From an uncultured Chlorobiaceae bacterium (GTDB lineage Bacteria > Bacteroidota > Chlorobiia > Chlorobiales > Chlorobiaceae): a stretch of DNA of 41,250 bases. Location of the stretch: positions 1 through 41,250 of the forward strand of contig CAIJPS010000094.1 in the NCBI GenBank assembly GCA_903822595.1. Direction: 5' to 3'. Position numbers and translations under genes: made by a program. Position 1 is the stretch's first letter; the number at the start of each line of letters is the position of its first letter. The notes beneath the pieces are model-generated. The model was not told where the DNA came from and did not search any database. It worked only from the letters and a program-made list of their open reading frames with translations. Below are positions 7,402 to 34,429 of this stretch, in pieces.

Positions 7402-8424
7402 ATGAGTTTTTTCAGTAATTTGTACCGTGATATTGCTATTGATTTTGGAACAACGAACACGTTGATTTATATCCACGGTTTGGGTATTGTTCTCAATGAG
7501 CCATCAATTGTTGCCCGAGAGTGTGATACGGGGAAAGTTCTGGCTTTCGGGACTGAAGCTCTTATCATGCATGATAAACTTCATCCAGGCATTGTCACTG
7601 TTCGACCGCTTTTCAATGGTGCCATTGGAGATTACCAGGCGATGCAGGAGTTGATCAAGGGACTGATCAACAAGACGAGAACCCGCTTTTCATACGGAAT
7701 TCACCATATGGTTATCAGTATTCCATCGGGTATTACTCCGGTTGAAAAAAGGGCTGTGCGCGACTTTGCCCAACACGTCGGTGCCAAAAAAATCTACCTG
7801 GTCACAAACCCTATGGCGGCGGCTATCGGTATCGGGCTTGACGTAAAGGAGCCTGTAGGGAATATGGTTGTCGATATTGGTGGCGGTACAACGGAAATTG
7901 CTGTTATTTCACTCAATGGTATAGCATCCGGCGATTGCGTGAAGGTGGCCGGGGCAGATATAAGCGATGTGATTGTCCGGCACCTCCGCGAGGAGTACAA
8001 TATGGCAGTTGGCGAAATGACAACTGAACATATTAAAGTACAAATTGCTTCGGCCTACAAGCTGGAAAAGGAGCTGACCATGGATGTCAGGGGCATCAAT
8101 CTTGAGACCGGACTTCCTGAAATCCGGAAGGTCAGTTCGGTCACTATCAGGGAAGTTATTTCTGTGCCGATCAACCAGATTATAACATCGATTAAAAAAA
8201 GCCTCGAAGCGTTGGTCATCAAGCCGGAACTTTCGGTGGACATTTTTGATCGAGGCCTTTTTCTTGTTGGAGGTGGAGCGCTGATCAAGGGAATTGACAA
8301 AAAAATCCATGAGGAAACCAATGTTCCCGTCCATATCTGCGATGATCCCCAGACTATCGTTGCCAGGGGGGCTGGTGAGATTCTGGAAAACCTTGAGAAA
8401 TATCGTGCTCTTTATTCTACCTGA
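7402..8424 (+). CDS. mreB: Rod-shape-determining protein MreB/Mbl
   Basis: This is an actin-like cytoskeletal ATPase that organises cell-wall elongation beneath the membrane; 340 residues, the usual size. It begins MSFFSNLYRDIAIDFGTTNT, with phosphate-1 motif DFGTTNT, phosphate-2 MVVDIGGGTTEIAVIS near residues 155-170, and the adenosine motif FLVGGGALIKGID near 293. No mreC or mreD follows; the next gene is convergent. Its own promoter must lie in the 190-bp AT-rich spacer upstream, where a TATAAC hexamer occurs at about 7379 without a well-spaced -35. Confidence 0.94.
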   Translation: MSFFSNLYRDIAIDFGTTNTLIYIHGLGIVLNEPSIVARECDTGKVLAFGTEALIMHDKLHPGIVTVRPLFNGAIGDYQAMQELIKGLINKTRTRFSYGIHHMVISIPSGITPVEKRAVRDFAQHVGAKKIYLVTNPMAAAIGIGLDVKEPVGNMVVDIGGGTTEIAVISLNGIASGDCVKVAGADISDVIVRHLREEYNMAVGEMTTEHIKVQIASAYKLEKELTMDVRGINLETGLPEIRKVSSVTIREVISVPINQIITSIKKSLEALVIKPELSVDIFDRGLFLVGGGALIKGIDKKIHEETNVPVHICDDPQTIVARGAGEILENLEKYRALYST

Positions 8425-13050: not shown

Positions 13051-13235
13051 AGTGAAAAGGGCTAAAGAATACTCTCAGACTTTTCTTTCTCCAATCTATG
13101 GAAATTTTGGCAATAGCGTTATGGAGAACATGATGTTTTCTGTATGAAAAATGACATCAACGGAGTTAATGTGATGCAACTGAGGGAGAATCTTTATATT
13201 GGAACACTTGAAGGATAGTTTCAGGATAAGTGTCT

Positions 13236-14078
13236 ATGCAGAAAGATCCCATTCATGCTGTTTGGAGAAGCCATTCCACAAAATGGAGCCGGGTAGGCTC
13301 CCCACTTCGTCCAACGAAAGAAGATCAACGCATCATGATGATGCTTTCGACTCCGGCATTATCTCATAGCAAAGAGAATTCCGTTGTCGTTGTTCTGGGG
13401 GTTACTCCTGAACTTGTTCAGCTCTCCTGGCCGAAAAATACCCGATTACTGGCTTTTGATCACAGCGCAGACATGATTGCCTCAGTCTGGTCCCCGCATT
13501 CCCGGAATCCCTCTTCTGTTCAGCAGGTATCCTGGCAAAAGATGCCGTTGTCTGATCAATCGGCAGATCTGGTTATTGGTGATGGCTGTTTTACCGTGTT
13601 ACCATGCGCGGATGACTACCGGAATGTGCTTGCGGAGTCGGCACGCGTACTGAAGCGGACTGGTCTTCTTGTGTTGCGGTGTTTTATTCGACCGGAGAGA
13701 TCGGAATCCCTGGAAGAGGTTCTTGCCGAGGTACTTGCAGGTCAGATCGGAAGTTTTCATGCTCTGAAGTGGCGGGTGGCGATGGCAATTATTCCGGATG
13801 AAGAGTTGAGTGTTGCTGTAACAGATATCCATGCCACATTTGAAAGGCTTTTTCCTGATAGAGATCAATTGGCAAAAAATACCGGGTGGCCCCGCACAGC
13901 CATTGATACCATCGATGCTTATCACGAAATGGATACCCGGTACACGTTTCCGACAATGTCAGCGTTTAGGAAGCTGGCTTTGCCGTTTGTTAATGTTGTG
14001 GATATTCGACAGGGCCATTATGAATTGGCTGAGCGGTGTCCAATTTTCTGTTTTAAACCAATTTATTCTCCAAGATGA
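13236..14078 (+). CDS. Class I SAM-dependent methyltransferase
   Basis: A product of about 280 residues with a Rossmann-type methyltransferase core: VVVVLGVTPELVQLSW (motif I region, with an unusual VTPE in place of GxGxG), LLAFDHSADMIASVW (acidic motif II), DLVIGDGCFTVLP (motif IV) and SARVLKRTGLLVLRCF (post-motif strand). The frame also permits GTG at 13230, but the AGGAT at 13223-13227 is better spaced to the ATG at 13236. The stop codon overlaps the start of the ATP-grasp gene by 4 bp, so the two are translationally coupled and probably act on the same small molecule. The substrate is unknown. Confidence 0.75.
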   Translation: MQKDPIHAVWRSHSTKWSRVGSPLRPTKEDQRIMMMLSTPALSHSKENSVVVVLGVTPELVQLSWPKNTRLLAFDHSADMIASVWSPHSRNPSSVQQVSWQKMPLSDQSADLVIGDGCFTVLPCADDYRNVLAESARVLKRTGLLVLRCFIRPERSESLEEVLAEVLAGQIGSFHALKWRVAMAIIPDEELSVAVTDIHATFERLFPDRDQLAKNTGWPRTAIDTIDAYHEMDTRYTFPTMSAFRKLALPFVNVVDIRQGHYELAERCPIFCFKPIYSPR

Positions 14079-16081
14079 GCAATGAATTGAAAAGCATCGA
14101 AGATACCGTCGCAATCAAGGTGGAAGGAAATTCTTTGGTGATCAAGGGTTTTATGTATGGTTTGCAGCACCCTTCTTTGATTGTACGTTTGTCGATAACT
14201 ATCGATAACTGTCAAGAGTGGTTGACCCGAGTTGATCAAGTGCTTTCTGACCTTCTTGGCGAGGTTCCAGGCGATATTGCCAGGCCACACAGGGTATCCG
14301 GTCATACTGATGAGCTGTATGCCATCAACTTTCTGCTTTTCTGGATGAGCAGATTAGAGCGGTCGATCAGGGTTCCTGTTTTTGAGCAGGGAAAGGTTCT
14401 TGGTTTTTTCCCAGAAACTCGCTCTGCACTCATTGCGATTCCAACAATTCCCTCATCGCATCAAACGACGGGCAAGTTGTTGTCCTGGCTTCTGCATGTT
14501 ATGAACAAGCTTTATGCCGAAAGGGATATTCATGCTTTAATCGAGGAATTCCCCGCTATTGTAAAGCAACTCAAGCGGATGGGGCCAAAAATTGCCAATA
14601 TGCCCCTTTTTGTAAGAACAGCGTTTGATTTGGGGATTCCTTGCTCTGAAATTGCCGGGCAGGTTTATCAGTTTGGTTACGGATCCCGATCAAGATTGCT
14701 CGACAGCTCTTTTACCGATCAAACCTCCCAGATTGGAACCCGTTTAGCCCGAATAAAGACCCTGACGGCGGCGGTTTTGCGACGTGCGGGTATTCCTGTC
14801 TCCGATCATATTATGGTTACAGAGAGTAGTGGCGCAGAGAAGGCTGCAGGTGATCTTGGATTTCCTGTTGTGGTAAAACCGGCTGATCTTGATGGTGGTG
14901 TAGGTGTTGCCGCAGGCTTGACCACGCAGGATGAAGTGCGTGAGGCTTTTGCTGTAGCTCAAAAGAGCTCTCGTAGCATTCTGGTAGAGAAGCACTATGA
15001 CGGGCGCGACTACCGGTTAACGGTCTTTCAGGGGGAGCTGATCTGGGCTATTGAACGGTTGCCGGGTGGTGTAACCGGTGACGGAAAAAGCTCGGTACAG
15101 ACACTGGTTGAACTTCTCAACGCTGATCCCCGTCGTGGAGAGGGCCCTCATGCATCACTCAAACGAATTGTGCTTGATGATGAAGCGCAATCGTTGCTCT
15201 CGAAAGCAGGTATGGGTTTCGGCACTGTTCCCGGAGAGGGTGAGTTTGTTCGACTTCGCCGTAGAGCCAATGTGGCTTGTGGTGGTATGCCTGTAGCGGT
15301 GTTTGAGCATGTTCATCCTGATAACAGATTGCTTGCCGTTCGCGCTACGGCTGCTTTGCGGCTTGATCTTGCCGGGGTTGATGTGTTGATACCCGATATC
15401 AGCCGTTCCTGGCGTGAAAGTGGTGCTGTGGTTTGCGAAGTCAATGCTCAGCCGAATCTGGGAGAGATAACATCGGCACATATCTATCCGCAGATTCTTC
15501 GCAAACTGGTGCAGGGTAGCGGGCGCATTCCGATTACTGTCATTGTTGGCTCACCTCAGGAGTTGGATGTGGCCGCAGCAGTTGCACTCCGATTGGGTAG
15601 CGCAGGTCTCGTCACCGGAAGAGGAGATCATGAAGGTGTTTCGATTGGGACCACAACAATCACTGCCGGGGTCGTTGACCCGTATAACGGAGGGCGAATT
15701 CTCATGGGAGACAAAAGTGTTGATGCGGCGATCCTGTGCATCAATGATCTCCGTGTGTTGCACACCGGTCTGCCGTTTGAGCGATTTGATCTTTTGGTGC
15801 TTGCAGGTACACATCTTTTACCAGACGCGAAGGACAGGGCGTCAAGAGTGGTTCAATTGCGCACTCTGTTCAACGCACTTTCTCCCTGTTGTGACGGCAA
15901 GGTGATCGTTGTTGAGGGATCCAGAATAGCAGTTCACGCACTGCTTTCATCGTCATCAGCGGAACTGTTGAAAGAACCAGTCGCCCAGGATGCGCTTGTT
16001 GAGACAATTGCTGAAGCGATGATTGCGGCAGACGACAACCATCGCATTGGACGACCTGCATTTTTGTCTGATCAAGCCTGA
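14075..16081 (+). CDS. Cyanophycin-synthetase-like ATP-grasp ligase with degenerate Mur-ligase domain
   Basis: A 668-residue protein with the domain order of cyanophycin synthetase. An N-terminal CphA-like region spans about 1-200, an ATP-grasp domain about 220-470, and a shortened Mur-ligase-like domain about 475-668. In the ATP-grasp part, YQFGYGSRSRLLDSSFTDQT, FPVVVKPADLDGGVGVAAG and VVCEVNAQPNLGEI are recognisable as lid, ATP-binding and metal-binding segments. The third domain begins like CphA (GRIPITVIVG), but the GTNGKTT P-loop is replaced by VGSPQELD, and the product is about 200 residues shorter than CphA. It should still make an ATP-dependent amide bond through acyl phosphate. Cyanophycin synthesis itself is unlikely. 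The 3' end overlaps the convergent BKACE gene by 10 bp. Confidence 0.8.
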   Translation: MSNELKSIEDTVAIKVEGNSLVIKGFMYGLQHPSLIVRLSITIDNCQEWLTRVDQVLSDLLGEVPGDIARPHRVSGHTDELYAINFLLFWMSRLERSIRVPVFEQGKVLGFFPETRSALIAIPTIPSSHQTTGKLLSWLLHVMNKLYAERDIHALIEEFPAIVKQLKRMGPKIANMPLFVRTAFDLGIPCSEIAGQVYQFGYGSRSRLLDSSFTDQTSQIGTRLARIKTLTAAVLRRAGIPVSDHIMVTESSGAEKAAGDLGFPVVVKPADLDGGVGVAAGLTTQDEVREAFAVAQKSSRSILVEKHYDGRDYRLTVFQGELIWAIERLPGGVTGDGKSSVQTLVELLNADPRRGEGPHASLKRIVLDDEAQSLLSKAGMGFGTVPGEGEFVRLRRRANVACGGMPVAVFEHVHPDNRLLAVRATAALRLDLAGVDVLIPDISRSWRESGAVVCEVNAQPNLGEITSAHIYPQILRKLVQGSGRIPITVIVGSPQELDVAAAVALRLGSAGLVTGRGDHEGVSIGTTTITAGVVDPYNGGRILMGDKSVDAAILCINDLRVLHTGLPFERFDLLVLAGTHLLPDAKDRASRVVQLRTLFNALSPCCDGKVIVVEGSRIAVHALLSSSSAELLKEPVAQDALVETIAEAMIAADDNHRIGRPAFLSDQA

Positions 16082-20688: not shown

Positions 20689-21351
20689 TCACTCTTTGAC
20701 ACACCTCACGGCAAAGCCCTGTGTTTTGCTGCTCGATATGCGGTACACGGCCGAATAGCTGTTGTACATCTCGCGGTACCATGCCGACCAGGCGTTGTTT
20801 TCTGTTGATGTCCAGAAGCCGCTGTTGTTGCCGAGAAGCGCAAAATTGCCGTTGCTGCTGCGGTAGCCTGAAGGAATAGCTGTAAATCCGCTACTGTTGT
20901 CTGCACCAACAAGCGGCTCTTTCCAGAGTATCTTGGATTTCAGTTTTGAGCCTGCTGCTTTCTCCCCGCCCAGCGTCGTCACCAGTTCCTGCCATTCGCC
21001 GTCTGAAGCGACATGCCACCCTTCGGGCGCAAGTCCCCTTGGATCGTTGACGGCATACCAGTTGTACAGTTTTCCGTAGGTCATGTTGTTCTCGCTCTTG
21101 TTTTCGTAATAACACCAGGCGCCTGTTGTGAGTTTGCTCCACGCTTCAGGGTTATCTACCTGGGGTATCGGGTCGCCGTTGCGGTAATTGCTGGTGTTGA
21201 GGTTTTCAGCCATCCATGCATGAGCAGCGATTGAGACGGTTTCAAAAGAATTGGTACCGGCAGAGAGCTCTTTTGCTGTTATAAAAAGGGCAAATACAGC
21301 GAAAACAATGAAAATTGCCGCTGTCCAAGGTGTTTTGTGGCTACTTTTCAT
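20689..21351 (-). CDS. Secreted FISUMP-domain protein
   Basis: A 220-residue exported protein with a 'Fibrobacter succinogenes major paralogous' domain. The N-terminus (MKSSHKTPWTAAIFIVFAVFALFITAKELSAG) is a signal peptide or single anchor. The domain follows: WMAENLNTSNYRNGD, WCYYENKSENNMTYGKLYNW, GLAPEGWHVASDGEWQEL, GFTAIPSGYRSSNG, FWTSTE and the terminal FAVRCVKE. These domains are related to the C-type-lectin-like or DUF1566 folds and sit on cell surfaces, but their ligands are generally unknown. The gene stands alone, convergent with corA. Two DUF1566 genes of similar architecture lie at 24171 and 33861. Confidence 0.85.
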   Translation of the reverse strand: MKSSHKTPWTAAIFIVFAVFALFITAKELSAGTNSFETVSIAAHAWMAENLNTSNYRNGDPIPQVDNPEAWSKLTTGAWCYYENKSENNMTYGKLYNWYAVNDPRGLAPEGWHVASDGEWQELVTTLGGEKAAGSKLKSKILWKEPLVGADNSSGFTAIPSGYRSSNGNFALLGNNSGFWTSTENNAWSAWYREMYNSYSAVYRISSSKTQGFAVRCVKE

Positions 21352-21642
21352 TATGTTGAAAGTCTAAAGTTTCATTCAAGACCTTATCTATTGACAGAAC
21401 TTCCCTGAAACAGGAAATTAACCTTTTTGCCGTTACTTATTTTCTTCAACGCGCCGGTTTTTTCCCCTTGCATTCGCATCATCATGAGTTTCAAGCATGT
21501 TCATTGTCCGTATTGCTGATTTTTTGCTGAAGTATTCTGATGTTATTAACTTTCAGAAATCTCAAAAGGTTTTGCTTGAACAGAGCGGGGTATTGTGCAA
21601 TGGTGCATGGTTCCAGGAAAAATGGAATGCTAACATAAACGA

Positions 21643-24024
21643 TTGAATGTAGTGGCAAGAGAACGTTTTAAACGAAAATCAAGACCCTCCGGTAACAAGG
21701 CACATAAGCCTTCGGTGCAGTTTACCGGGGAGAGGGTGAAGCCGAATGATCATATTCTTATCAACGAGTTTCTTTTCAGGCGGGGTGAGAGCTCCCTTGC
21801 GGCTGAAATTGTTACCTTTTTTGCTGATCACGATGGCGAGCGCTTCAAGTCGGTAGAGCTGGCACAGGCTCTTGGGTATACCGAATCAAAACAGTTACCC
21901 GGTTTCTGGTATGTGCTGCACAAATTGCAGGAGGAGGGAACTGTTGACAAGGACTCCAACCGCTGTTACGGCATATCGGGTACGGATGCCACCACCTACG
22001 AAGCTCATCTTGAGCAGGCCAAGCCCTTTCCTCTTCCTGGCAAAAAGCAGTACACGGTAAAGAGCTATACCGGCCATATCACAACGCATCCCAATGGCTA
22101 CGGCTTTGTTGATGTTGAGGGTTTCGATGATGATATCTTCATCAAGGCTGGCGATATGGGTCTCGCCATTCATGGTGACGAAGTCGAGGTACTTGTTTCG
22201 AAGGTGCCGGATACCTATTCTTCAAAATCGACCCCCCATCAGCGCTGTGAAGGCGCGGTGCAGAAGGTTCTTTCCCGCCGCATCACCACTATTGTCGGTA
22301 CGCTGACCAAGGCAAACCGCAAGTTTGTTCTCAAGGCTGACGACAGGAAGATTTTGCCAGAAATCATTGTGCCGATCAGAAATTCCCTCAAGGCGGTTGA
22401 TGGCCAGAAGGTGCTTGTCGGGGAGCTTGATTTCAGTAAGGAGGGGCAGATTCAGGCCAAGGTGCTTGAGATACTGGGTATTGCTGGCGACTCGGCTGTT
22501 GAGGTAAGCGCCATTGCCCGGAGCCGTGGCATTGACGAAACCTTCGACAAGCAACTGCTTGATTTTGCGGCCTCCATTCGTGAGGGTATTACCGAAGAGG
22601 ATCTCAAAGGCCGTCTCGATATTCGCGACAAGGTTGTCTTTACGATTGATCCTGTCGATGCAAAGGATTTTGATGATGCACTGTCGATTGAGATGCTTGA
22701 TGACGGTCAGTATAAAATAGGCGTCCATATTGCTGATGTATCGCACTATGTGCCTGAAAATTCTCCCCTCGACCGCGAGGCGCTCAAAAGGGCCACCTCG
22801 GTCTATCTCGTTGACCGGGTGATTCCGATGCTGCCTGCACGACTTTCTGAACAGATATGCAGCCTCAACCCCGGTGTTGACCGGATGGCATTTTCGGTTT
22901 TCTTGACCATCACGGACGCTGGTGAAGTGAGCAAGCATGAGTTTAACAAAACGGTTATTCACTCCAAGCGTCGTTTTGCCTACGAAGATGTCGAGGAGAT
23001 TCTGAAACGGGGAAAGGGAGATTTTGTTGATGAGTTGCAGGCGCTTGACCGCCTCAGTGTTATTTTGCGGGAGAAGCGTTTCAAACATGGCGGACTCGAT
23101 TTTGAAACGGAGGAAGTTCGCTTCAAGCTTGGCAGCAAGGGCGAGCCGCTTGAGGTTATGAAGAAAGAGCGTCTCGGCAGCCATCGTCTCATTGAAGAGT
23201 TCATGCTGCTTGCCAATCGCAAGGTGGCCAAATATCTCACCAAAACCTTCAAGGAGAACAAGAAAGAGCCACAGCCGATTATCTACAGGGTGCATGGCGC
23301 TCCACAGCAGGAAAAGGTGCTCATTCTTGCCAATTTCGTCAAAAGACTCGGATTTGACCTCAAGCTGAACCGTGGCAAAGAGGGACCGATTGTTTCCGCT
23401 TCAGCACTTCGCCAGCTCTTGCAGCAGGTGAAGGGATCCAATATTGAATTTTTGGTCAGCGAACTGGTGCTGCGCTGTATGTCGAAGGCGGTCTATACCG
23501 GCGACAATGTAGGCCATTACGGCCTCGGTTTTGAGCATTACACCCACTTCACCTCGCCGATCAGACGTTATCCCGACCTGATTGTCCATCGCATGCTCTT
23601 TGAGTATGAGAACCTCCGGAAGAAACGCCGGAAAATCTCCGCAACACGCCTTGCTGAGCTGACCGGCAAGATTCAGACGGTCTGCCAGATATCCAACGAG
23701 CGAGAAAAAAGTGCCGTCGAGGCAGAGCGTGAGTCGATCAAGCTCAAGCAGGTCGAGTATATGGCCAGCCATGTCGGCAAGGTCTATCCCGGCGTTATTT
23801 CAGGCGCGACCGATTACGGTATCTATGTGAGAATGGTTGATTTTGCCATCGAGGGGATGGTGCACATGCGCAACCTCACCGACGACTATTACGAATATGA
23901 TGAGGCAACTTACTCCCTGGTCGGAAAACGCCGCAAGAAACGGTTGCAGATTGGCCAGCGGGTCAAGGTCAAGGTGAACAGCGTGGATCTGCAGCGCCGC
24001 ACCATCGATCTTGTTTTAGAATAA
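21643..24024 (+). CDS. rnr: Ribonuclease R
   Basis: A processive 3'-5' exoribonuclease that degrades structured RNA; 793 residues, normal for the family. Domains in order are a basic N-terminal winged-helix region (about 30-110), two cold-shock domains ([19 protein letters not shown] near 150), the RNB catalytic core ([14 protein letters not shown] near 340, [32 protein letters not shown]) and a C-terminal S1 domain ([15 protein letters not shown]). The listed start is TTG; a GTG at 21652 is the next in-frame option, and neither has a strong Shine-Dalgarno. It is monocistronic and ends at a strong hairpin terminator. Confidence 0.93.
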
Positions 24025-24037
24025 GAGGTCGAAACTT

Positions 24038-24097
24038 TTCCCCTGACGGGCGTAAGCTTTCAGGGGAAGAGGTACTGCCTGGCAGTGCCTTTTTTTG
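24038..24097 (+). terminator. Double-hairpin intrinsic terminator of rnr
   Basis: A 9-bp stem (TTCCCCTGA 24038-24046 with TCAGGGGAA 24060-24068) is followed at once by GGTACTG (24071-24077) pairing with CAGTGCC (24083-24089), allowing one G-T pair. An eight-T run follows. The second hairpin plus T-tract is a classic Rho-independent terminator. Confidence 0.85.
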
Positions 24098-24170
24098 TAG
24101 ATGGTTAATGAGTACCCGATCTAAAGAGAGATTGTATAACCCATGATCAAACAGCAAAATGAGGAGTACT

Positions 24171-25130
24171 ATGGATGGCAAGCAGGACAATCAGGATAGG
24201 CAGCAGAAGCCGTTAACCCGGCGGGAAGCTATAAAAATGCTGGCTCTCGGAGCAGCGGGTGCAATAACCTCCCTTACCTTGGGACGAGATGCATTTGCCT
24301 GGGACAACCGCTATTACTCTAACCCTTATTTATCCGTGTACTCTCCCCCTTACTATGGATCGTACGCCTATTCTTCCTCTTCCTACTCTTCCAGTTCCGG
24401 CTATTTGTCGTCCTACCGCACATCTGGCTATTCTTATTCCTCCTCTGGTGGCTACTCATCCAGTTATTACAATTACAGCTCCTACAGCTCTTATAGATCT
24501 TATAGCTCTTACTCCTCCTTATACAGTTCGTACTCTTCCTTGTATAGCTCATACAGCCCCTATTCGTCACATAACTCAAATGCTCCGGGGCAGAGCAGGA
24601 TTGGGGAGGCTTATGGAGGAGGAATTATCTTTTATGTCGACGGTTCTGGCCAGCACGGCCTTATTGTGGCAAAGGAAGATATCAACAAGAAGTATAAAGA
24701 CAGGTGGAATGGAGAAAAATATGACAGCCGGTTTCGATGGTGTACGGGCCGCAGTGAGGGAGATGTATCGAGAGAAGATTATGCTTACGGAGACATAGGA
24801 ACATATACATGGATCGGAGCTGGAGGGATAAATACGCAACAGATTCTGTTGAGATATCCAGTATCAGACTATCCGAACAGTGCAGCGGCAGTGGTCAGTG
24901 CCTACAGGGGGGGAGGCTATAGCGACTGGTTTTTGCCGAGTAGGGACGAACTGTATGAGCTTTGCAAGCAATACAAAAAAAGTGTTTTTGGTGGTTTTGC
25001 TCCCAGCCATTACTGGAGTTCTTCGGAGTATAGTGCAGTTGTCGCATGGAATCAAAATATTGGCAATGGGTCACAGTTTGTCGACAACAAGGTCAACGAG
25101 TGGCGGGTGCGGCCTGTCCGGGCGTTTTGA
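24171..25130 (+). CDS. Tat-exported Ser/Tyr-rich protein with DUF1566 domain
   Basis: A 319-residue protein with three parts. A twin-arginine signal (LTRREAIKMLALGAAGA, cleavage likely after DAFA near residue 43) is followed by about 95 residues made almost only of Ser and Tyr with some Gly (SSYSSLYSSYSSLYSSY and similar). A DUF1566 domain comes last (IGEAYGGGIIFYVDGSGQHG, GYSDWFLPSRDELYEL, HYWSSSEYS, ending RVRPVRAF). The frame opens at 24159, but GAGGAG at 24161-24166 places the start at ATG 24171. Tat export implies folding or modification in the cytoplasm before transport. A tatA gene follows at 25274, and a radical SAM/glycosyltransferase cassette comes after that. Function unknown; probably cell-surface. 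Confidence 0.85.
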   Translation: MDGKQDNQDRQQKPLTRREAIKMLALGAAGAITSLTLGRDAFAWDNRYYSNPYLSVYSPPYYGSYAYSSSSYSSSSGYLSSYRTSGYSYSSSGGYSSSYYNYSSYSSYRSYSSYSSLYSSYSSLYSSYSPYSSHNSNAPGQSRIGEAYGGGIIFYVDGSGQHGLIVAKEDINKKYKDRWNGEKYDSRFRWCTGRSEGDVSREDYAYGDIGTYTWIGAGGINTQQILLRYPVSDYPNSAAAVVSAYRGGGYSDWFLPSRDELYELCKQYKKSVFGGFAPSHYWSSSEYSAVVAWNQNIGNGSQFVDNKVNEWRVRPVRAF

Positions 25131-25159
25131 ACAATTTATCAATTTAACCATTTGGGGGT

Positions 25160-25179
25160 ACAGGGGGCTTGCCCCCTGT
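25160..25179. repeat. Perfect 9-bp GC-rich hairpin followed by an A-tract
   Basis: ACAGGGGGC-TT-GCCCCCTGT lies between the DUF1566 gene and tatA, followed by eight A (not T). On the plus strand it is a stable hairpin that could slow transcription or protect the upstream mRNA 3' end, but it lacks the U-tract of a terminator. It may be a dispersed repeat family member. Confidence 0.55.
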
Positions 25180-25273
25180 CAAAAAAAAGTAAAGCAGGTT
25201 GCTGCGCGGGAAAATGGATTGCTTCCATAATGGATCTGGCAGATATTAATCACGTAAACCCAGAGGAGAGAGG

Positions 25274-25462
25274 ATGTTTGGAATAGGTGGTCAGGAGCTT
25301 CTTCTTGTTTTTCTTATCATTTTGCTGTTGTTCGGTGCCCAGAAGCTTCCAGAGCTTGCCAAATCGCTGGGCAAAGGGATGAAAGAGCTGAAGAGAGCGC
25401 AGAGCGAGATTGAGGAAGAGGTTAACAAGGTGGTTGATGCGCCCTTGAAAAAGGAGAAATGA
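25274..25462 (+). CDS. tatA: Twin-arginine translocase subunit TatA/TatE
   Basis: A 62-residue inner-membrane protein that multimerises to form the passage for folded Tat substrates. One N-terminal transmembrane helix (LLLVFLIILLLFG) precedes the conserved FGAQKLPELAKSLGKGMKELKRA amphipathic-helix region, and a charged tail follows. The ribosome site is strong (GAGGAGAGAGG just before ATG). No tatB or tatC is adjacent. It lies between a Tat substrate gene and the radical SAM cassette; 82 bp separate it from the first radical SAM gene, so it may be dedicated to this locus or simply be the general TatA. Confidence 0.92.
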   Translation: MFGIGGQELLLVFLIILLLFGAQKLPELAKSLGKGMKELKRAQSEIEEEVNKVVDAPLKKEK

Positions 25463-25544
25463 TTGGTTGTTCATCTTGACAATGGTGTTGTTGTAACCGT
25501 GCTTTTCGCCATGCAAAAGGCAGCGCATAAAAAAGTGAAGCGAT

Positions 25545-26558
25545 ATGGCTAATCTGCTGTTAACCCGTCGGTGCGTCCGAAGTTGTCCTTACTGTTTTGC
25601 GAGTGAGCAGATGAACATGAATGATCTCTCCGCAGAGGTGAGTTGGGAAGATTTGATCTATGTCACTGACTTTTTTGAATCATCGGGCGAGAAGCGACTG
25701 TCGTTGCTGGGCGGCGAACCTTTGCTGCATAAGCACTTTCCCGACATGGTGCTCTATCTGCTCAAACGGGGGTTTCATGTCACCGTTTTTACCAGCGGGG
25801 CGATACCGCAGGAGCTGACCGATACCATAAAGAGTTTTTTACCGGTTGATCTGCTCATGCCTCTCGATTTTGTCTGCAATCTGAATGAGCCCTCATGCTC
25901 TCCGAAGAAGGAGAACGAGCGTGTTGAATATTTTTTGAAGCAATTTGGCCCAAAGTGCGGGCCGGGGTTCAATATCTACCGTCCTGATTTCGATCTTCTC
26001 TTTCTTTTTGATTTGATCAATCGTTTTGGCCTCAAGCGTCATCTGCGCCTCGGTCTTGCTGCTCCCATTCCCGGTGCGGTCAATCAATGCCTCTCTGTAA
26101 GTTCAATTCGTCCAGCGATGCAGCGGCTGCTTTCGTTTGCCGCTGATTTTGCCCGTAACCGGTTGCAGATGGAGCTTGATTGTGGCTTTACGCTCTGCTC
26201 TTTTACCGATGAAGAGCTGGGCACGCTTTTCAGGATTGCAACTCCGCTGCATTTCGGGTGTGGACCGGCGGTGGATATTGGCCCAGACATGATGGTCTGG
26301 TCCTGTTTTCCGCTTTCACGGCTTGCGCCCCGTTCGCTCTATGAGTTTGCCTCTCTTGGCGAGTTGCTTGACCATTTTCGTGCGCGGTTGGGCGATCTTC
26401 GAGCTGAATCGGGGGGCATTCATTATGAGTGCGATGAGTGCCAGCATCGCGAAATCGGGCGCTGTCAGGGTGGCTGTGCGGCCCATATTCTTGCAGCCAT
26501 GAAAGATGAACCTTCTATCCGTCTTCCGGAGATCAATACATGCCTGCAGAACCTGTAG
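25545..26558 (+). CDS. Radical SAM/SPASM-type protein (first of cassette)
   Basis: A 337-residue protein with the radical SAM cluster motif at the extreme N-terminus (LTRRCVRSCPYCFAS, Cx3Cx2C), a GGEPLLHKHF motif binding the SAM amino group, and a C-terminal Cys set (FGCGPAVDI, WSCFPLS, YECDECQHREIGRCQGGC). The latter resembles SPASM auxiliary iron-sulfur ligation. Such enzymes modify peptides or proteins by radical chemistry. Its 3' end overlaps the next gene by 19 bp, implying coupled translation. No known maturase subfamily is recognisable to me. Confidence 0.85.
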   Translation: MANLLLTRRCVRSCPYCFASEQMNMNDLSAEVSWEDLIYVTDFFESSGEKRLSLLGGEPLLHKHFPDMVLYLLKRGFHVTVFTSGAIPQELTDTIKSFLPVDLLMPLDFVCNLNEPSCSPKKENERVEYFLKQFGPKCGPGFNIYRPDFDLLFLFDLINRFGLKRHLRLGLAAPIPGAVNQCLSVSSIRPAMQRLLSFAADFARNRLQMELDCGFTLCSFTDEELGTLFRIATPLHFGCGPAVDIGPDMMVWSCFPLSRLAPRSLYEFASLGELLDHFRARLGDLRAESGGIHYECDECQHREIGRCQGGCAAHILAAMKDEPSIRLPEINTCLQNL

Positions 26559-27004
26559 ATTTTTCCTGCCGTCCGGCAGAGTGGATCATGCGAACCGCTA
26601 CGCAGCATGAAGAGATACCCTTGCTTCCGGTGTCCGGTGAATTCCTGACGAAGGCGAGGATTCTCTCTTCATTAGGCGTTCGTGTATCGCTCGATCTCTC
26701 CACCGGCCTGATTGACTGGGAGGCGTTAAGTGATCTCCTCTCTTACGCGGTGTATGGCCGTTGCCCTCATGCGCCCATCGAGCTGTTTGAAACCATGATT
26801 GCACAGCCGCCTCCTGAACAGGAAACGTTGAACGAGCAATTTGTCACTCGTGACTCCTGCGTTAATTGCCAGGGTTGGCGGGCCTGTTTTGGTGAGTGGA
26901 AGGCGCAGTGCACACCGGCCTGCCAGGATTTTTTTACTGAAATTATTGATGCCCGTCTCTACCGGCTCAAGCAGTTCGGAGAAGGGAAGCCATGCCCACA
27001 CTGA
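26540..27004 (+). CDS. Cys-rich partner protein of radical SAM cassette
   Basis: A 154-residue protein of no family I recognise. Its C-terminal part has SCVNCQGWRACFGEW followed by QCTPACQDFF (Cx2Cx5Cx7Cx3C). This looks like a detached SPASM or metal-binding knuckle, followed by a short helix (EIIDARLYRLKQF). The N-terminal half may be an alpha/beta region (ARILSSLGVRVSLDLSTGLIDWEAL) reminiscent of a substrate-recognition fold, but this is a guess. It overlaps both neighbouring radical SAM genes (19 bp and 13 bp), so it is part of the same translational unit. It might be an electron-transfer or substrate-handling subunit. Confidence 0.7.
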   Translation: MPAEPVDFSCRPAEWIMRTATQHEEIPLLPVSGEFLTKARILSSLGVRVSLDLSTGLIDWEALSDLLSYAVYGRCPHAPIELFETMIAQPPPEQETLNEQFVTRDSCVNCQGWRACFGEWKAQCTPACQDFFTEIIDARLYRLKQFGEGKPCPH

Positions 27005-28104
27005 TTGTAAAACCAACCGAGCGCTGTACCTCACATTGCGCCTATTGTGATGTGGTTGCCAAAAAGAAGCGTTTCGATGATATGACGGTGGAGACCTTGC
27101 GGTTGATTTTTCAGCGCGTGGACGAGTATCTGAAAGCGCACCCTGAAAGCAGAGTCAACTGGATATGGCATGGCGGTGAACCGCTCCTGATGGGCAAGCA
27201 TTTCTATACGCAAAGCCGTGAACTGCTTCATACGCTCTGTAAAACGACCGGTGACCGGATTCAGTTTGCCATGCAAAGCAATCTGATGCTCATGGATGAT
27301 GCATGGGCAAGTGTTCTCAGGGAGTTGCGGATAACCTCGCTCGGATCCAGCTATGACCCGCTTGATGGCGCCCGGGGAGCGGGGGAGCTTTGTGATACGG
27401 TGGCCTATAACAGGGCATTCCTGCGGGGAAAAATGGTTGCGGAACGCAGTGGTATCGGTGTGGGAATCATCTATGTGCTGACCAGGCCAGCCCTTGATCG
27501 ATCTCGTGAAATTTTTCATCATCTTGTCAATGTTACGGGTGGCAGTTTCAACATTCATCCCGTTCTTCTGTACTGTGACCGGCGACCTGATCTTGCGGTC
27601 ACTCCGGATGAATATGCCGACTTTCTGGGAGAGATTTTTCCGGAATGGTGGCAGCATCGTGAACGATATGGCAGGGTTGAACCATTTTCGTCACTTGTTT
27701 GCAATATCATGGAACAGAGTCATTCGCTTGGTTGTGTTTTCAGCGGGAACTGTATGCGTGAACATATTTCGATAGCCCCTGACGGCCATCTTTCGCACTG
27801 TGGCCGGTCGGAAGATTGGGATTTGCTTGATTATGGTATGCTTCATGACAAAACCTTTGAGACGGTGCTGCATGATGCACAGCGGATGGCGCTGGAAGAT
27901 CGTAATGCGCATCTTCTGAAAAATGAGTGTGCTGACTGTCGCTTTTGGGGTCTGTGCCATGGGGGTTGCCCTCTGGATGGATGGGCTGTTCAGGGCAATC
28001 TTCTTTCGAGCAGTCCATGGGGATGTGCTCAAAAAAAATTCATTGTCGAATATTTTGAACCGATTACCGGAGTGCGTTATGAAGGAATCTCCCATCTGGA
28101 TTAA
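26992..28104 (+). CDS. Radical SAM/SPASM-type protein (second of cassette)
   Basis: A 370-residue enzyme. The N-terminal TERCTSHCAYCDVV (Cx3Cx2C) binds the radical cluster, WHGGEPLLMG is the SAM-contact motif, and a C-terminal SPASM/twitch region carries LGCVFSGNCMREHISIAPDG, SHCGRSEDW, CADCRFWGLCHGGCPLDGW and a last Cys in PWGCAQ. This Cys pattern is that of anaerobic sulfatase-maturase-like (anSME/PqqE-like) enzymes, which act on peptides or proteins. The start overlaps the Cys-rich gene by 13 bp, and the end overlaps the glycosyltransferase gene by 26 bp. Confidence 0.88.
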   Translation: MPTLIVKPTERCTSHCAYCDVVAKKKRFDDMTVETLRLIFQRVDEYLKAHPESRVNWIWHGGEPLLMGKHFYTQSRELLHTLCKTTGDRIQFAMQSNLMLMDDAWASVLRELRITSLGSSYDPLDGARGAGELCDTVAYNRAFLRGKMVAERSGIGVGIIYVLTRPALDRSREIFHHLVNVTGGSFNIHPVLLYCDRRPDLAVTPDEYADFLGEIFPEWWQHRERYGRVEPFSSLVCNIMEQSHSLGCVFSGNCMREHISIAPDGHLSHCGRSEDWDLLDYGMLHDKTFETVLHDAQRMALEDRNAHLLKNECADCRFWGLCHGGCPLDGWAVQGNLLSSSPWGCAQKKFIVEYFEPITGVRYEGISHLD

Positions 28105-28912
28105 TCCGGTCGGCGGACTCGGTGACACGTTGATGCTTTCCGGAGTGCTGAAGTTCGTTCTTGACCGTGAGCCAGGCACTCGTTTTCAGCTTGTTCGCCG
28201 AATGAAATATCTTCCGTTTCTTGCCAATCATCCGGCGATCAGCGGGATTGGCCATCCGCCAAAAGATGCAACACTGATTGGCACTGACTATTGGAGCACT
28301 GAGCGCTATCGGCAGGGGGGCAGGGCATTTCACTCTCTTGCCGAAAAGTTTGATCTGCCGTTGCCTGTTGCTGAACAACTGTGGTTACCTGATATGGAGA
28401 AGTTAACGTACAGATGGCCCTCGTTGCCTCCTTTGCGTCCCCGTGTTGTTTTTTCAGCCAGCACCGACTCGCCACGCAAAAAGTGGGAGATGAGAGAGTG
28501 GGCCGATCTGGTGGCGAGGTTTCAACAAAATGGCTGGAGCGTTATACAAACCGGACGGATTCATGAACCCTATATTCCGGGCGCATTTTCCCTGCTGGGT
28601 CTTACCTCTCCACTCGAATTGATCGCCTTGCTGAAGGAGACGGATCTGCTGATATCGACAGACAGTTTTGCCATGCATGCGGCAAAGTTGGTTGGAACGC
28701 CCGCCATTATCCTGTGGGGTCCGACGCTTTCATCGGTTTATGGGTATAAAGAGCATCTTCATGTTTCAGCAGCAAAACGGTGTGAGCCAGCCTGTATCGG
28801 TCCTGATCAATCTATCCAGTATGGAACGCCCTGCACTCAGGAAACTCCATGTATGACATCGATTAAGGCCGATCAGATATGGGATGTGGTAACGGCAGCA
28901 AATTGCCTGTAA
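28079..28912 (+). CDS. Glycosyltransferase family 9 (heptosyltransferase-like)
   Basis: A 277-residue GT-B fold enzyme of family 9. It starts MKESPIWINPVGGLGDTLML (the GGLGD acceptor-side loop typical of heptosyltransferases), and the donor-binding half contains GLTSPLELIALLKETDLLISTDSFAMHAAKLVGTPAIILWGP. The frame is open from 27923, but homology begins at ATG 28079. It overlaps the preceding radical SAM gene by 26 bp, so it belongs to that cassette rather than to a lipopolysaccharide cluster; no other LPS genes are near. It may glycosylate the product of the radical SAM enzymes. It ends 5 bp before the convergent photolyase gene. Confidence 0.85.
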   Translation: MKESPIWINPVGGLGDTLMLSGVLKFVLDREPGTRFQLVRRMKYLPFLANHPAISGIGHPPKDATLIGTDYWSTERYRQGGRAFHSLAEKFDLPLPVAEQLWLPDMEKLTYRWPSLPPLRPRVVFSASTDSPRKKWEMREWADLVARFQQNGWSVIQTGRIHEPYIPGAFSLLGLTSPLELIALLKETDLLISTDSFAMHAAKLVGTPAIILWGPTLSSVYGYKEHLHVSAAKRCEPACIGPDQSIQYGTPCTQETPCMTSIKADQIWDVVTAANCL

Positions 28913-28917
28913 AAGTT

Positions 28918-30300
28918 TTATGCGGTAATTGAAGGTTTCGGTTGAGCATAGCGGGCTATGTACCGGTTGACATCGAACTTTCGTGCACATCCTGAGGCGT
29001 TCATGTAGCGGATTTTTCCATAGACCGGCCTGTCAAACCAGGGACGGTCATGGAGTCCCCCGATTGACCATGCAACACCGGCGTAGCCGTTCGGCTCCCT
29101 TCCGTCAAGGGCGAAGCGGTCGTTCAGGAAGATGGCGCTCTCAAATGCCTGCTCAGGGGTTTCACTCCACTCAAGAATTTTTTTTGCCCAGTACATCCTC
29201 ATGTAGCCGTGCATTACCCCTGTTGTTATCAGTTCGAGCTGTGCGGCATTCCAGAGCCTGTCGTGCGTTGTAGCGGAGGCAAACTCTTGCGGAGTATAGA
29301 GGTACTCACGCCGGTCGCCCGCATGCTGCTTCAGGCTCTCCCGGGCCCATGCCGGGATCCCCTCAAAAGAGTCATAGTGATCATTATAGCAGCAATAGTT
29401 ATCTGACAGCTCCCGCCGTACAATCAGCTCTTCAAGAAAGGCTTTTTTGTCAGTTTTCGGTGCTTCGCTTTTCCGGGCCTGCATGGCAATAAACTGTGCA
29501 CTGATCTGGCCGAAATGCAGATAGGCCGAAAGATGTGAGGTTGCCCCTGCATTGGGATCATTGTGCTTTTCTGCATACGAGGCAAGGCGGTTTCGCAGGA
29601 AGCTCTCAAGGCACTGCTTTGCCGCCTTTTCTCCCGGTTTCAGCCACTCAACAGGCGGCACATCCGGGTCAGCATGCACGTTACGGTATACATCGCTCCA
29701 GTCGATCGGCTGGCATGCAGAGGGCGAAGCAAGTGGCTCAAGCTCGGGAAAGTCGGTCAGGAACTCACCAAGCAGGGCATTGATTTTCGGACGGAGCGTT
29801 CTGGCAGAATATTCCTGTTTACCGGAAGCGATCCAGCAGGGCACGATGTTATGGGCATCGACCTCATAGAGTGGAGCGGTGAGCTGTCGGGCAACCTCCT
29901 TTTTCCATTTTCCGGAAATGTTCTGTGGTGAAAAATCGGTGACCACCACTCCTGCCTTTATCTTTTCAGCAAAGCGGGGAAGTTCTGTTTTCGGTTTGCC
30001 CTGAAGGAGTACAAAGGGAATGTTGAGCGTTTTGAGATCAGTTTCAACCTCCTGCAGCCCTTTGAGCATGAAATCGTAATGGCGGAGTGGAGCGTGGAGA
30101 AAAGAGGGCGCAAGCGTAAAAAGCACCACAAGAGGCTGCTGCAGGAGTTCGGCTTTTCTGCGGGCAAAGAGCAGTGCCCAGTTCTGGCGGACTCTCTGGT
30201 CGCGTGACATCCAGTAGATCACGGTTCCTTTGCCGTCACGGTTCTCGTTCAGGAGGCGGATGCGCCGTGGATCGATCATGAAGCGCTGCGGTTCAGACAA
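28918..30300 (-). CDS. phr: Class II CPD photolyase
   Basis: A 460-residue FAD enzyme that splits cyclobutane pyrimidine dimers using light. The N-terminal VIYWMSRDQRVRQNWALLFA is the class II signature, and the C-terminal block NGYAGVAWSIGGLHDRPW followed by GKIRYMN is the conserved flavin/DNA-binding end. The middle region (ATSHLSAYLHFGQIS, RRELSDNYCCYNDHYD) matches the FAD-binding helices. Length is normal. Its start overlaps the end of the glutamine amidotransferase gene by 8 bp. A light-repair enzyme suits a phototrophic organism. Confidence 0.93.
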   Translation of the reverse strand: MSEPQRFMIDPRRIRLLNENRDGKGTVIYWMSRDQRVRQNWALLFARRKAELLQQPLVVLFTLAPSFLHAPLRHYDFMLKGLQEVETDLKTLNIPFVLLQGKPKTELPRFAEKIKAGVVVTDFSPQNISGKWKKEVARQLTAPLYEVDAHNIVPCWIASGKQEYSARTLRPKINALLGEFLTDFPELEPLASPSACQPIDWSDVYRNVHADPDVPPVEWLKPGEKAAKQCLESFLRNRLASYAEKHNDPNAGATSHLSAYLHFGQISAQFIAMQARKSEAPKTDKKAFLEELIVRRELSDNYCCYNDHYDSFEGIPAWARESLKQHAGDRREYLYTPQEFASATTHDRLWNAAQLELITTGVMHGYMRMYWAKKILEWSETPEQAFESAIFLNDRFALDGREPNGYAGVAWSIGGLHDRPWFDRPVYGKIRYMNASGCARKFDVNRYIARYAQPKPSITA

Positions 30301-31009
30301 GGCCGGAAATCCGCAGGAAGTTGTGCAGGAGTTTCAGACCGGTCGAATGGTACTCCTCCCTGATTGTTTCAAACTGTTCCAGGAGGTCGTGGCGATTCAT
30401 ACCCTTCAGGTCAGTATCGATATCGCACCAATTCGAAAACATTGCATCGGTCAATTCAAAATGGCATTGCAGGCCATAGCCGTTTTTTCCAACCCTGACA
30501 GCTTGTACTGGACAGTGTTTGCCGGTTGCAAGCAGCTCCATCCCTGATGATGCAAGCTCCACCGTCTCTCCATGAAGCTGAAAGACCGGAAAGCTCTTGC
30601 CAAGTCCGCCAAAGAGAGCCTCCTTTTTGCCTGCAGAGGTAAGATCAATGCGGTACGGATTCCCTTCGGGGTCAATAAAACCAATCTCTTTTACCGGAGA
30701 TTTTACCACTTTTCCTCCACCCGCTTTTACAAGGCACTGTATGCCAAGGCAGATTCCAAGACAGGGGATCTCCTCATGGAGCGCCTGCTCAATACGGCGG
30801 AGCTGTAGCAGCATGGCAGGGGTCTCATCGTTGGCACTCTGGGGTCCTCCAAGCACCACAAGAGCACTGTAGCCCCGTGGATCGGGAAAGGTTCCGCCTG
30901 CTGAAAGATCCTCACTGTGCCATGCGATACCGTGCTCGCAGAGCAGTGTTTCAAGAAGTCCCGGCCCTTCGTGGGTGATGTTTTTGACGATCAGTATTTT
31001 TCTGCTCAT
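30293..31009 (-). CDS. Class I glutamine amidotransferase (GMP-synthase-like)
   Basis: A 238-residue protein with a class I amidotransferase fold. VVLGGPQSAND and the nucleophile elbow CLGICLGIQCLV (Cys) are visible, as is YGLQCHFELT (His) followed by a Glu-less variant region. The frame extends to 31063, but the N-terminus that matches the family starts at MSRKILIVKN (31009). Stand-alone proteins of this type hydrolyse glutamine-like amides or gamma-glutamyl compounds; the partner or substrate is unknown. The 8-bp overlap with phr indicates an operon. The usual His-x-Glu of the triad reads HFE here, so it is plausibly active. Confidence 0.85.
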   Translation of the reverse strand: MSRKILIVKNITHEGPGLLETLLCEHGIAWHSEDLSAGGTFPDPRGYSALVVLGGPQSANDETPAMLLQLRRIEQALHEEIPCLGICLGIQCLVKAGGGKVVKSPVKEIGFIDPEGNPYRIDLTSAGKKEALFGGLGKSFPVFQLHGETVELASSGMELLATGKHCPVQAVRVGKNGYGLQCHFELTDAMFSNWCDIDTDLKGMNRHDLLEQFETIREEYHSTGLKLLHNFLRISGLV

Positions 31010-31066
31010 GGATTGTTGCTGGATGATGGTCAAGAATCGAACGGAGAATATAATATGATACAAATG

Positions 31067-33457: not shown

Positions 33458-33860
33458 GTATATTCTCGTCTCCGACTTTTTGAACTGTTCCTGACAGGCT
33501 GACTAACACAGGACATGTTCATTACCTGGACTGAAGGCAGTGAATTTAAAAAAATATCCCTCCTTTTCCTCATCGTTCTTTTTTTTGTGTTTTTTATTCA
33601 TGATTTTGCTTTAAACACAACAAAAGTACGCTCAATATTCTCTCTGTAATGGGTTGCCCTTGTCAATATGGCAGGAGGTTTTCTGATGTGCCTGCAGCGT
33701 GCAGGGGGGGAATAAAGTTAGTCAACAACGATCAGGCTGTTTGTTTTATAAAAAAACATATATTATTCGTATATTTATTGTGAAAGGATGTAGGCGAGGT
33801 GTTGGGTCAGTTTTCGTGCTTTCTCGACTCTTTTTCTGTAAACCCATTAAAAATTTCTTT
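33458..33860. other. Spacer without a convincing gene
   Basis: About 400 bp, partly T-rich (33560-33600). It holds a short CCTGCA-GCG-TGCAGG palindrome at 33691-33705. A frame open from 33699 could extend the DUF1566 remnant upstream, but its residues are not family-like. I see no other gene. Confidence 0.4.
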
Positions 33861-34429
33861 ATGAGCTACACGAATTCCATCCGGCAATTGGCTCATGTAT
33901 TTCACAAGAAAGAGTATCAGAATACCGATGAACATGAAGGTGTTTATGGGAAGCTGTTTGCCGATGAAAACCAATCAGAAGCAAAGAACCGAAACAATCA
34001 GTCGCAATTGCTGCATGAGCAGGGGCGGGTTACCGTAGGTGACGAGTATGGCGGTGGCATTGTTTTTTATGTTGATGGTACCGGAATACATGGACTTGTT
34101 GTCGCCAAAGCAGATATGCCGACTCTTTCATCTGACAAGGAGGAGGGGGGCTTTACCTGGTGTGATGCCAAAGCCGCATGCACTACGCTTGAGAGCAATG
34201 GCTATCGTGACTGGTTTTTACCAAATAAGGAGCAGTTGAATCAGCTCTATCTCATCAGCTCTATCTCAACAAGCTTGCTGTTGGAGGTTTTGCCGATAAC
34301 CATTACTACTGGAGTTCGACGGAGTACAATGAGAATATTGCATGGTTACAGAACTTTACCAATGGAACCCACTATGTGATCAGCAAGACGTATGGCCTCG
34401 ATCGTGTACGGGCTGTTCGGGCTTTTTAA
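33861..34429 (+). pseudogene. DUF1566 protein gene, frameshifted
   Basis: The first frame carries GDEYGGGIVFYVDGTGIHGL, FTWCDAKAAC, GYRDWFLPNKEQLNQLYL, then loses homology. The expected ending (KLAVGGFADNHYYWSSTEYN, then RVRAVRAF and stop at 34429) continues in another frame. The break coincides with a 14-bp duplication at 34242-34269; removing one copy restores an unbroken domain. It closely resembles the DUF1566 half of the Tat-exported protein at 24171 but lacks its Tat signal and Ser/Tyr tract. The N-terminus is uncertain: ATG 33861 has no clear ribosome site. Confidence 0.8.
34242..34269 (+). repeat. 14-bp tandem duplication causing a frameshift
   Basis: CAGCTCTATCTCAT is followed immediately by CAGCTCTATCTCAA. 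Thirteen bases are identical at a 14-bp period. In the single-copy form the frame would read NQLYLNKLAVGGF, as in the family. Confidence 0.85.

Follow-up and report, generated by a model that had tools for sequence, protein, structure and literature searches.

A radical SAM cassette of Chlorobiaceae and other phyla as the probable maturation machinery of a Tat-exported tyrosine-repeat protein

The stretch of DNA analysed here (the window) comprises 41,250 nucleotides of contig CAIJPS010000094.1 (assembly GCA_903822595.1) from an uncultured Chlorobiaceae bacterium. At positions 25545-28912 it contains four overlapping genes on one strand, namely those for two radical S-adenosylmethionine (SAM) enzymes (rSAM1 and rSAM2), for a small protein encoded between them (ORF2, open reading frame 2) and for a glycosyltransferase of family 9 (GT9). 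This cassette is probably the maturation machinery of a tyrosine-repeat protein of the RiPP (ribosomally synthesized and post-translationally modified peptide) type, exported by the twin-arginine translocation (Tat) pathway, and the putative precursor is encoded at 24159-25130. The initial annotation had described gene overlaps of 19, 13 and 26 bp, which were found again here, and its view that the genes form one functional unit is borne out, as are a ribosomal product as the probable target of the paired SPASM-type radical SAM enzymes and the unusual partnership with GT9. It had also stated that no precursor was present; however, a tyrosine-repeat protein with a Tat-type signal lies just upstream of the interval that it covered and is apparently exported by Tat, a route that it had not taken into account.

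Precursor and its association with the cassette

The putative precursor (plus strand, 323 residues) consists of three parts. A Tat-type signal (24159-24299, residues 1-47, with a putative start codon), assigned from its sequence, the score of the TIGR01409 model and the leader consensus given below, ends in TRREAIKMLALGAAGAITSLTLGRDAFA and is followed by Tyr/Ser repeats of the YSSYSS kind (24312-24572, residues 52-138), which are the proposed modified core. The C-terminal region (24573-25130) carries an Lcl_C domain (PF07603; 44.9 bits, Pfam cut-off 34.9). rSAM1 is present in four of the 86 genomes of the family, and the association of precursor and cassette was also found in three other Chlorobiaceae. 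A homologous protein with Tat signal and Tyr repeats directly follows GT9 in G241 and G311, and G237 encodes, upstream of rSAM1, a 120-residue protein with a Tat leader and GYGVSGDYVASG repeats; an identical sequence at the ends of two G237 contigs shows that rSAM1, ORF2 and rSAM2 follow one another in a row.

The idea of this precursor came from the Chlorobiaceae loci and was recorded ahead of a cross-phylum scan of genome contigs, made with an rSAM1 alignment, that yielded 37 loci (38 with the window). The scan loci span Chlorobi, Bacteroidetes, Nitrospirae, Ignavibacteria, Deltaproteobacteria, Spirochaetes, Elusimicrobia, Gemmatimonadetes and others. A Tat-like and mostly Tyr-rich ORF was found near the cassette in 34 of the 38 loci; of the four others, two (L070 and L079) are cut off by a contig end, and in the other two (L075 and L076) this search showed no complete cassette. 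By a stricter count, 33 Tat-like Tyr-repeat ORFs lie within 1.5 kb of a cassette (219 kb), versus a single one farther away (294 kb), and the latter is a tatC gene and a false positive. The precursor stands upstream of the enzymes in some loci and downstream in others, and L059, L073 and L074 have a tandem pair of precursors. Some precursors are short, the L061 type having 83 residues and the L073 type 86. Apart from the core enzymes, GT9 and the precursors, no family of neighbouring genes exceeds six loci.

Because the association persists in 34 of the 38 loci while the position of the precursor varies, the pairing appears to be a functional one, and gene association strongly supports the Tyr-repeat protein as the substrate partner of the cassette, whose enzymes would modify it. 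The locus has, in other words, a SPASM-type radical SAM enzyme encoded together with its own candidate precursor. Alternatively, the substrate of the cassette could be something else, for instance a glycan or a protein of the envelope, and the Tyr-repeat protein a linked passenger or a product effector; family annotation has GT9 enzymes such as heptosyltransferases normally acting on lipopolysaccharide, and the variable location of the precursor would suit a passenger. Against this, the association holds despite the changes of position, precursors occur in tandem, and the precursor is kept while GT9 is dispensable, so we regard another target as unlikely.

Among the precursors, only the Chlorobiaceae version has the Lcl_C domain. 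It was rejected as a defining feature of the system, being common in Chlorobiaceae without the cassette and absent from the precursors of other phyla. Proteins with Lcl_C or similar domains are numerous in Chlorobiaceae (in the window, for example, 20689-21351 and 33699-34379), and the precursor protein was matched in 63 of the 86 family genomes, mostly through its C-terminal part and with up to 14 matches per genome. One match to this Tat/Tyr/Lcl_C protein, at G197:C60:24215-25078, begins at its residue 42, contains three internal stops and occurs in a genome without rSAM1; it may be a decayed precursor. The precursors of L051, L054, L055 and L078 have in common a Cys-containing C-terminal block like YYSQYCSGxGSxYYYSYxCSxRYSS, a hint of a separate conserved module.

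In prevalence sampling, rSAM1-like genes were found in four of 394 genomes of the phylum, two of 42 genomes in one class and seven of 393 genomes in one order. To judge from contig numbers and coordinates, most of these hits are loci already in the set, and therefore they do not form an independent validation set. The hit in G580 (Bacteroidales) belongs to a different, PqqD-associated system: at L084 5232-7398, two rSAM1-like genes stand with a PqqD-like ORF and a neighbour at 7409-7921, a related but different and probably peptide-modifying arrangement.

Enzymes of the cassette

The conserved core of the cassette is formed by rSAM1, ORF2 and rSAM2; rSAM2 is present in 32 of the 38 loci, and clustering placed ORF2-type proteins in 30. 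The gene order, with its tight or overlapping junctions, repeats in loci of many phyla, and the arrangement is therefore more than chance.

rSAM1 (25545-26558, plus strand; PF04055, 51.4 bits) was assigned from its Pfam score, its cysteines and an AlphaFold2 model. The CxxxCxxC motif and seven further Cys are invariant in 35 homologues. The model, which has a pLDDT (predicted local distance difference test) of 88.8, is closest to the peptide-modifying enzymes SuiB (Z 21.6), anSME (Z 20.5) and ChlB (Z 18.9). A small cofactor or a modified amino acid might be made instead, as by relatives of PqqE or MoaA, and the N-terminal part of rSAM1 does match the MoaA, PqqE and viperin models weakly. All of these matches are far under the cut-offs, however, the folds of SuiB and anSME outrank that of MoaA (about 15.5), and no cofactor-pathway genes recur among the loci. 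The initial annotation had named assignment to a cofactor-biosynthesis family as the result that would overturn its view; neither radical SAM protein passes the cut-off of such a model, and this alternative seems to us very improbable. A defence system was also considered and rejected, the viperin-like matches being weak and limited to the radical SAM core.

ORF2 (26540-27004, plus strand), to which the initial annotation gave no name, has no match to a Pfam or NCBIfam family in its window form. The family to which it belongs is conserved and has full-length members of about 285 residues, compared with which the window protein, at 154, is shortened. An alignment of 29 rows shows a C-terminal CxxC-x5-C...C pattern with four invariant Cys and no CxxxCxxC motif. 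A model of the full-length homologue from L060 (pLDDT 91.7) resembles anSME (Z 14.4 over 263 residues, 3.7 A), ChlB (Z 13.1) and structures of sactipeptide maturases (Z about 13), so that the family is predicted to have a pseudo-radical-SAM/SPASM fold. Given the homologue family, the alignment and this fold, we rejected the ideas that ORF2 is a precursor or a small protein standing by itself.

rSAM2 (26992-28104, plus strand) has a PF04055 domain and a SPASM domain above the cut-off of TIGR04085, and its Cys 12, 16, 19, 83, 248, 254, 270, 313, 316, 322 and 326 are invariant in 32 homologues. The best NCBIfam models are DynA (136.6 bits, cut-off 450), TIGR04083 (129.6, cut-off 300) and the anaerobic sulfatase maturase TIGR03942 (126.1, cut-off 349.45). 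Scores are also under the cut-off for DarE (99.6/650), HxsB (53.1/370) and the models of three-residue cyclophane-forming enzymes (3-CyFE), namely GrrM/OscB (75.6/310), YhhB (66.5/445), XyeB (50/450) and FxsB (57.7/370). The L067 homologue of rSAM2 scores 35.0 of 400 with ScmE (SynChlorMet), a model that is outside the 25 best for the window protein. No NCBIfam system-level maturase model reaches its curated cut-off with the cassette proteins, in agreement with the earlier remark that no named maturase family fits. Since rSAM2 scores best on peptide and protein maturases, and the folds of rSAM1 and the ORF2 homologue match peptide-modifying enzymes, a role in peptide maturation is favoured.

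L054 (9084-9821) and L055 (11015-12121) have a second rSAM2 paralogue in tandem behind the first. An unrelated cassette in the genome of the window (L002, 106-2553; G000 contig C6) encodes an 815-residue protein with two radical SAM/SPASM-like halves, beside a protein that by eye looks HEAT-repeat-like.

Repeat rule and predicted crosslink

The precursors analysed contain 994 Tyr in 2,762 core residues, and a Tyr is followed by another at +3 in 60% of cases, versus 40% in shuffled sequences. Residues that stand at +2 of a Tyr and do not precede another Tyr are Ser, Asn or Asp in 82% of cases (n = 279). The corresponding values are 33% (n = 250) for residues before a Tyr but not at +2, and 48% (n = 487) for those at +1 only. 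The rule, Tyr-x-[Ser/Asn/Asp], is directional; in the repeat region of the window, 73% of the Tyr have Ser, Asn or Asp at +2. Triceptide enzymes link residues i and i+2; the beta-carbon partners are Asn, Asp, Ser, Arg and Ala, and the aromatic residue may be Tyr, including a Tyr-Asp link (PMC11002830). The repeats show this aromatic-x-x pattern with a candidate beta-carbon partner at i+2, and by analogy the Tyr is probably crosslinked to the residue at i+2.

The same precursor may, however, undergo other chemistry, such as epimerization, Tyr-Tyr or ether links, or beta-carbon oxidation, the +2 rule then being a by-product of how the repeats are built. The folds nearest to rSAM1 are those of SuiB and anSME, whose chemistries differ, the combination of two radical SAM enzymes with a pseudo-enzyme suggests multiple reactions, and the L062 precursor violates the rule. 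On the other hand, the directionality of the rule (82% versus 33%) fits the published triceptide geometry (PMC11002830), and the nearest models of rSAM2 include cyclophane-forming maturases. We therefore think such other chemistry rather unlikely, though the most credible of the alternatives.

Tat export

The leaders of 37 precursors have the consensus [ST]RR[ED]A[LI]KR[IM][AS], which is close to the Tat motif; twin arginines precede a hydrophobic stretch, and RR is present in at least 34 of the 37. On the window precursor the Tat-signal model TIGR01409 scores 13.6 bits, under the cut-off of 16.7. Five leaders have a strict lipobox-like Cys pattern, and by eye several more have a similarly placed Cys.

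Genes of the Tat pathway are linked to the precursor as well. In the window a tatA gene (25274-25462, plus strand; PF02416, 65.7 bits) lies between precursor and cassette, and in L061, L073 and L074 tatA and tatC directly follow the precursor (Pfam identified TatC in L061 and L073 and TatA in L061; the remaining genes were recognised by sequence). The linked tatC of L074 is the sole one found in its genome, G318, and G317 and G319 have two. The genome of the window has one TatC, encoded elsewhere, and three TatA-like genes including that at 25274-25462. The leaders and these linked genes point to the precursor as a likely Tat substrate.

How export waits for modification is a question that has been raised for RiPP precursors with Sec signals (PMC12452194). 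Tat exports folded proteins (PMC10924467), and therefore a Tat-type leader could help to couple export to maturation.

Glycosyltransferase

The GT9 gene (plus strand), whose start was chosen at 28079 and which ends at 28912, has a PF01075 score of 50.9 bits (cut-off 22). GT9 is present in 19 of the 31 testable loci, and in L065 and L067 it is fused with rSAM2 into one protein. Repeat Ser is higher in the loci with GT9 (median 0.28 versus 0.09, p = 0.003, uncorrected for relatedness).

Proposed maturation pathway

The favoured reading, maturation of a Tat-exported Tyr-repeat protein, can be put as follows. The precursor would be made with its Tat-type leader, and its repeats would be modified in the cytoplasm by rSAM1 and rSAM2 together with ORF2, their pseudo-radical-SAM partner. 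The most likely reaction would join Tyr(i) to the beta-carbon of Ser, Asn or Asp(i+2), and rows of small rings, each a three-residue cyclophane, would result. GT9, where present, probably adds a sugar to the repeats, perhaps on Ser or Thr. The product would then cross the membrane via Tat and may stay or be anchored in the envelope, as the lipobox-like Cys of some precursors and the Lcl_C domain of those in Chlorobiaceae suggest. As to its role, a stiff polymer at the surface or in the periplasm is a guess.

Several observations weigh against this scheme. In the L062 precursor (GYGVSGDYVASG), excluded from the +2 count, no more than 30% of the Tyr obey the rule, and the precursors of L056, L058, L064, L066 and L069 obey it weakly; period-3 Tyr repeats could carry the motif for structural reasons. 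The Tat-signal model scores at or below its cut-off, so that the Tat assignment comes from motif and gene linkage, and no TatC was found in the genome of L048, which may be incomplete. No RRE (RiPP recognition element) domain turned up, in analyses that included no RRE-aimed search. GT9 is missing from 12 of the 31 testable loci, L065 and L067 have GT9 yet little Ser, and the trend of Ser with GT9 may reflect shared ancestry.

Segment absent from near relatives

The RNase R of G048 and that of G044 are 97% and 96% identical to that of the window. By BLASTN, G048 aligns to 21622-24067 and then, after a 48-base gap, to 30287-31038, and G044 behaves likewise; the alignments break at 24067 or 24014 and restart at 30287. 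The difference of about 6.2 kb (24068-30286, no strand assigned) holds the precursor gene, tatA and the cassette, together with almost the whole of a photolyase-family gene (28918-30300, minus strand). Because the RNase R flank joins position 30287 directly in the two relatives, the precursor gene, tatA and the cassette all belong to a single segment, either gained here or lost there. For G048 and G044, tatA as an old neighbour of RNase R is rejected, since the flank continues straight to 30287 and tatA is absent there.

For the photolyase-family gene, on the opposite strand, no link to the cassette was seen in other loci. Transposase-like ORFs were seen by eye near the cassettes of L005 and L036. 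Elsewhere in the window, 14075-16081 encodes by eye a 668-residue ATP-grasp, cyanophycin-synthetase-like protein and overlaps a methyltransferase-like gene (13230-14078).

Comparison with known systems

The cassette is covered by no family model or openly searchable paper that we found, and it occurs across many phyla. Literature searches on radical SAM enzymes together with Tat export, tyrosine-rich sequences or GT9 and heptosyltransferases returned nothing relevant in openly readable full texts, and an earlier description is possible. For the study of repeated crosslinking the system provides a substrate that is long and regular; it also has a pseudo-radical-SAM partner and a GT9 with peptides as possible acceptors. 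Its occurrence in many phyla suggests an unrecognised envelope function. It may even represent a first class of Tat-exported RiPPs. A radical SAM trio, one member of which is a pseudo-enzyme, would then staple long Tyr-repeat proteins at each Tyr-x-[S/N/D] unit, GT9 would glycosylate them in some lineages, and bacteria of many phyla would display them in the cell envelope; we entertain this fuller picture tentatively, with doubt slightly prevailing.

Like the cassette, GeoRSP (by its NCBIfam name) pairs a radical SAM enzyme with a SPASM-domain protein, and five ORF2 homologues gave no match to its model TIGR04304 up to E = 1. In HxsABCD, the His-Xaa-Ser system, paired radical SAM enzymes again accompany a repeat protein; its repeats, however, are His-x-Ser instead of Tyr-x-[S/N/D], and rSAM2 is under the HxsB cut-off. 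The darobactin and dynobactin maturases (DarE, DynA) include the top-scoring model of rSAM2, yet that score is far from the cut-off, and the precursors of the cassette differ in their long Tyr repeats. Bufferins and other RiPPs made by MNIO (multinuclear non-haem iron-dependent oxidative) enzymes have Sec signals and are modified mostly on Cys, whereas in the cassette system the signal is of Tat type, the enzymes are radical SAM proteins and the proposed target is Tyr. The triceptide or 3-CyFE enzymes (XncB, OscB, GrrM, YxdB, YhhB and FxsB) are alike in that a SPASM radical SAM enzyme stands beside a repeat precursor with aromatic-x-[N/S/D] units that fit an i/i+2 link. The cassette differs from them by scores that are far under the cut-offs of their models, the Tat-type leader, the pseudo-radical-SAM partner, the second radical SAM enzyme and GT9.

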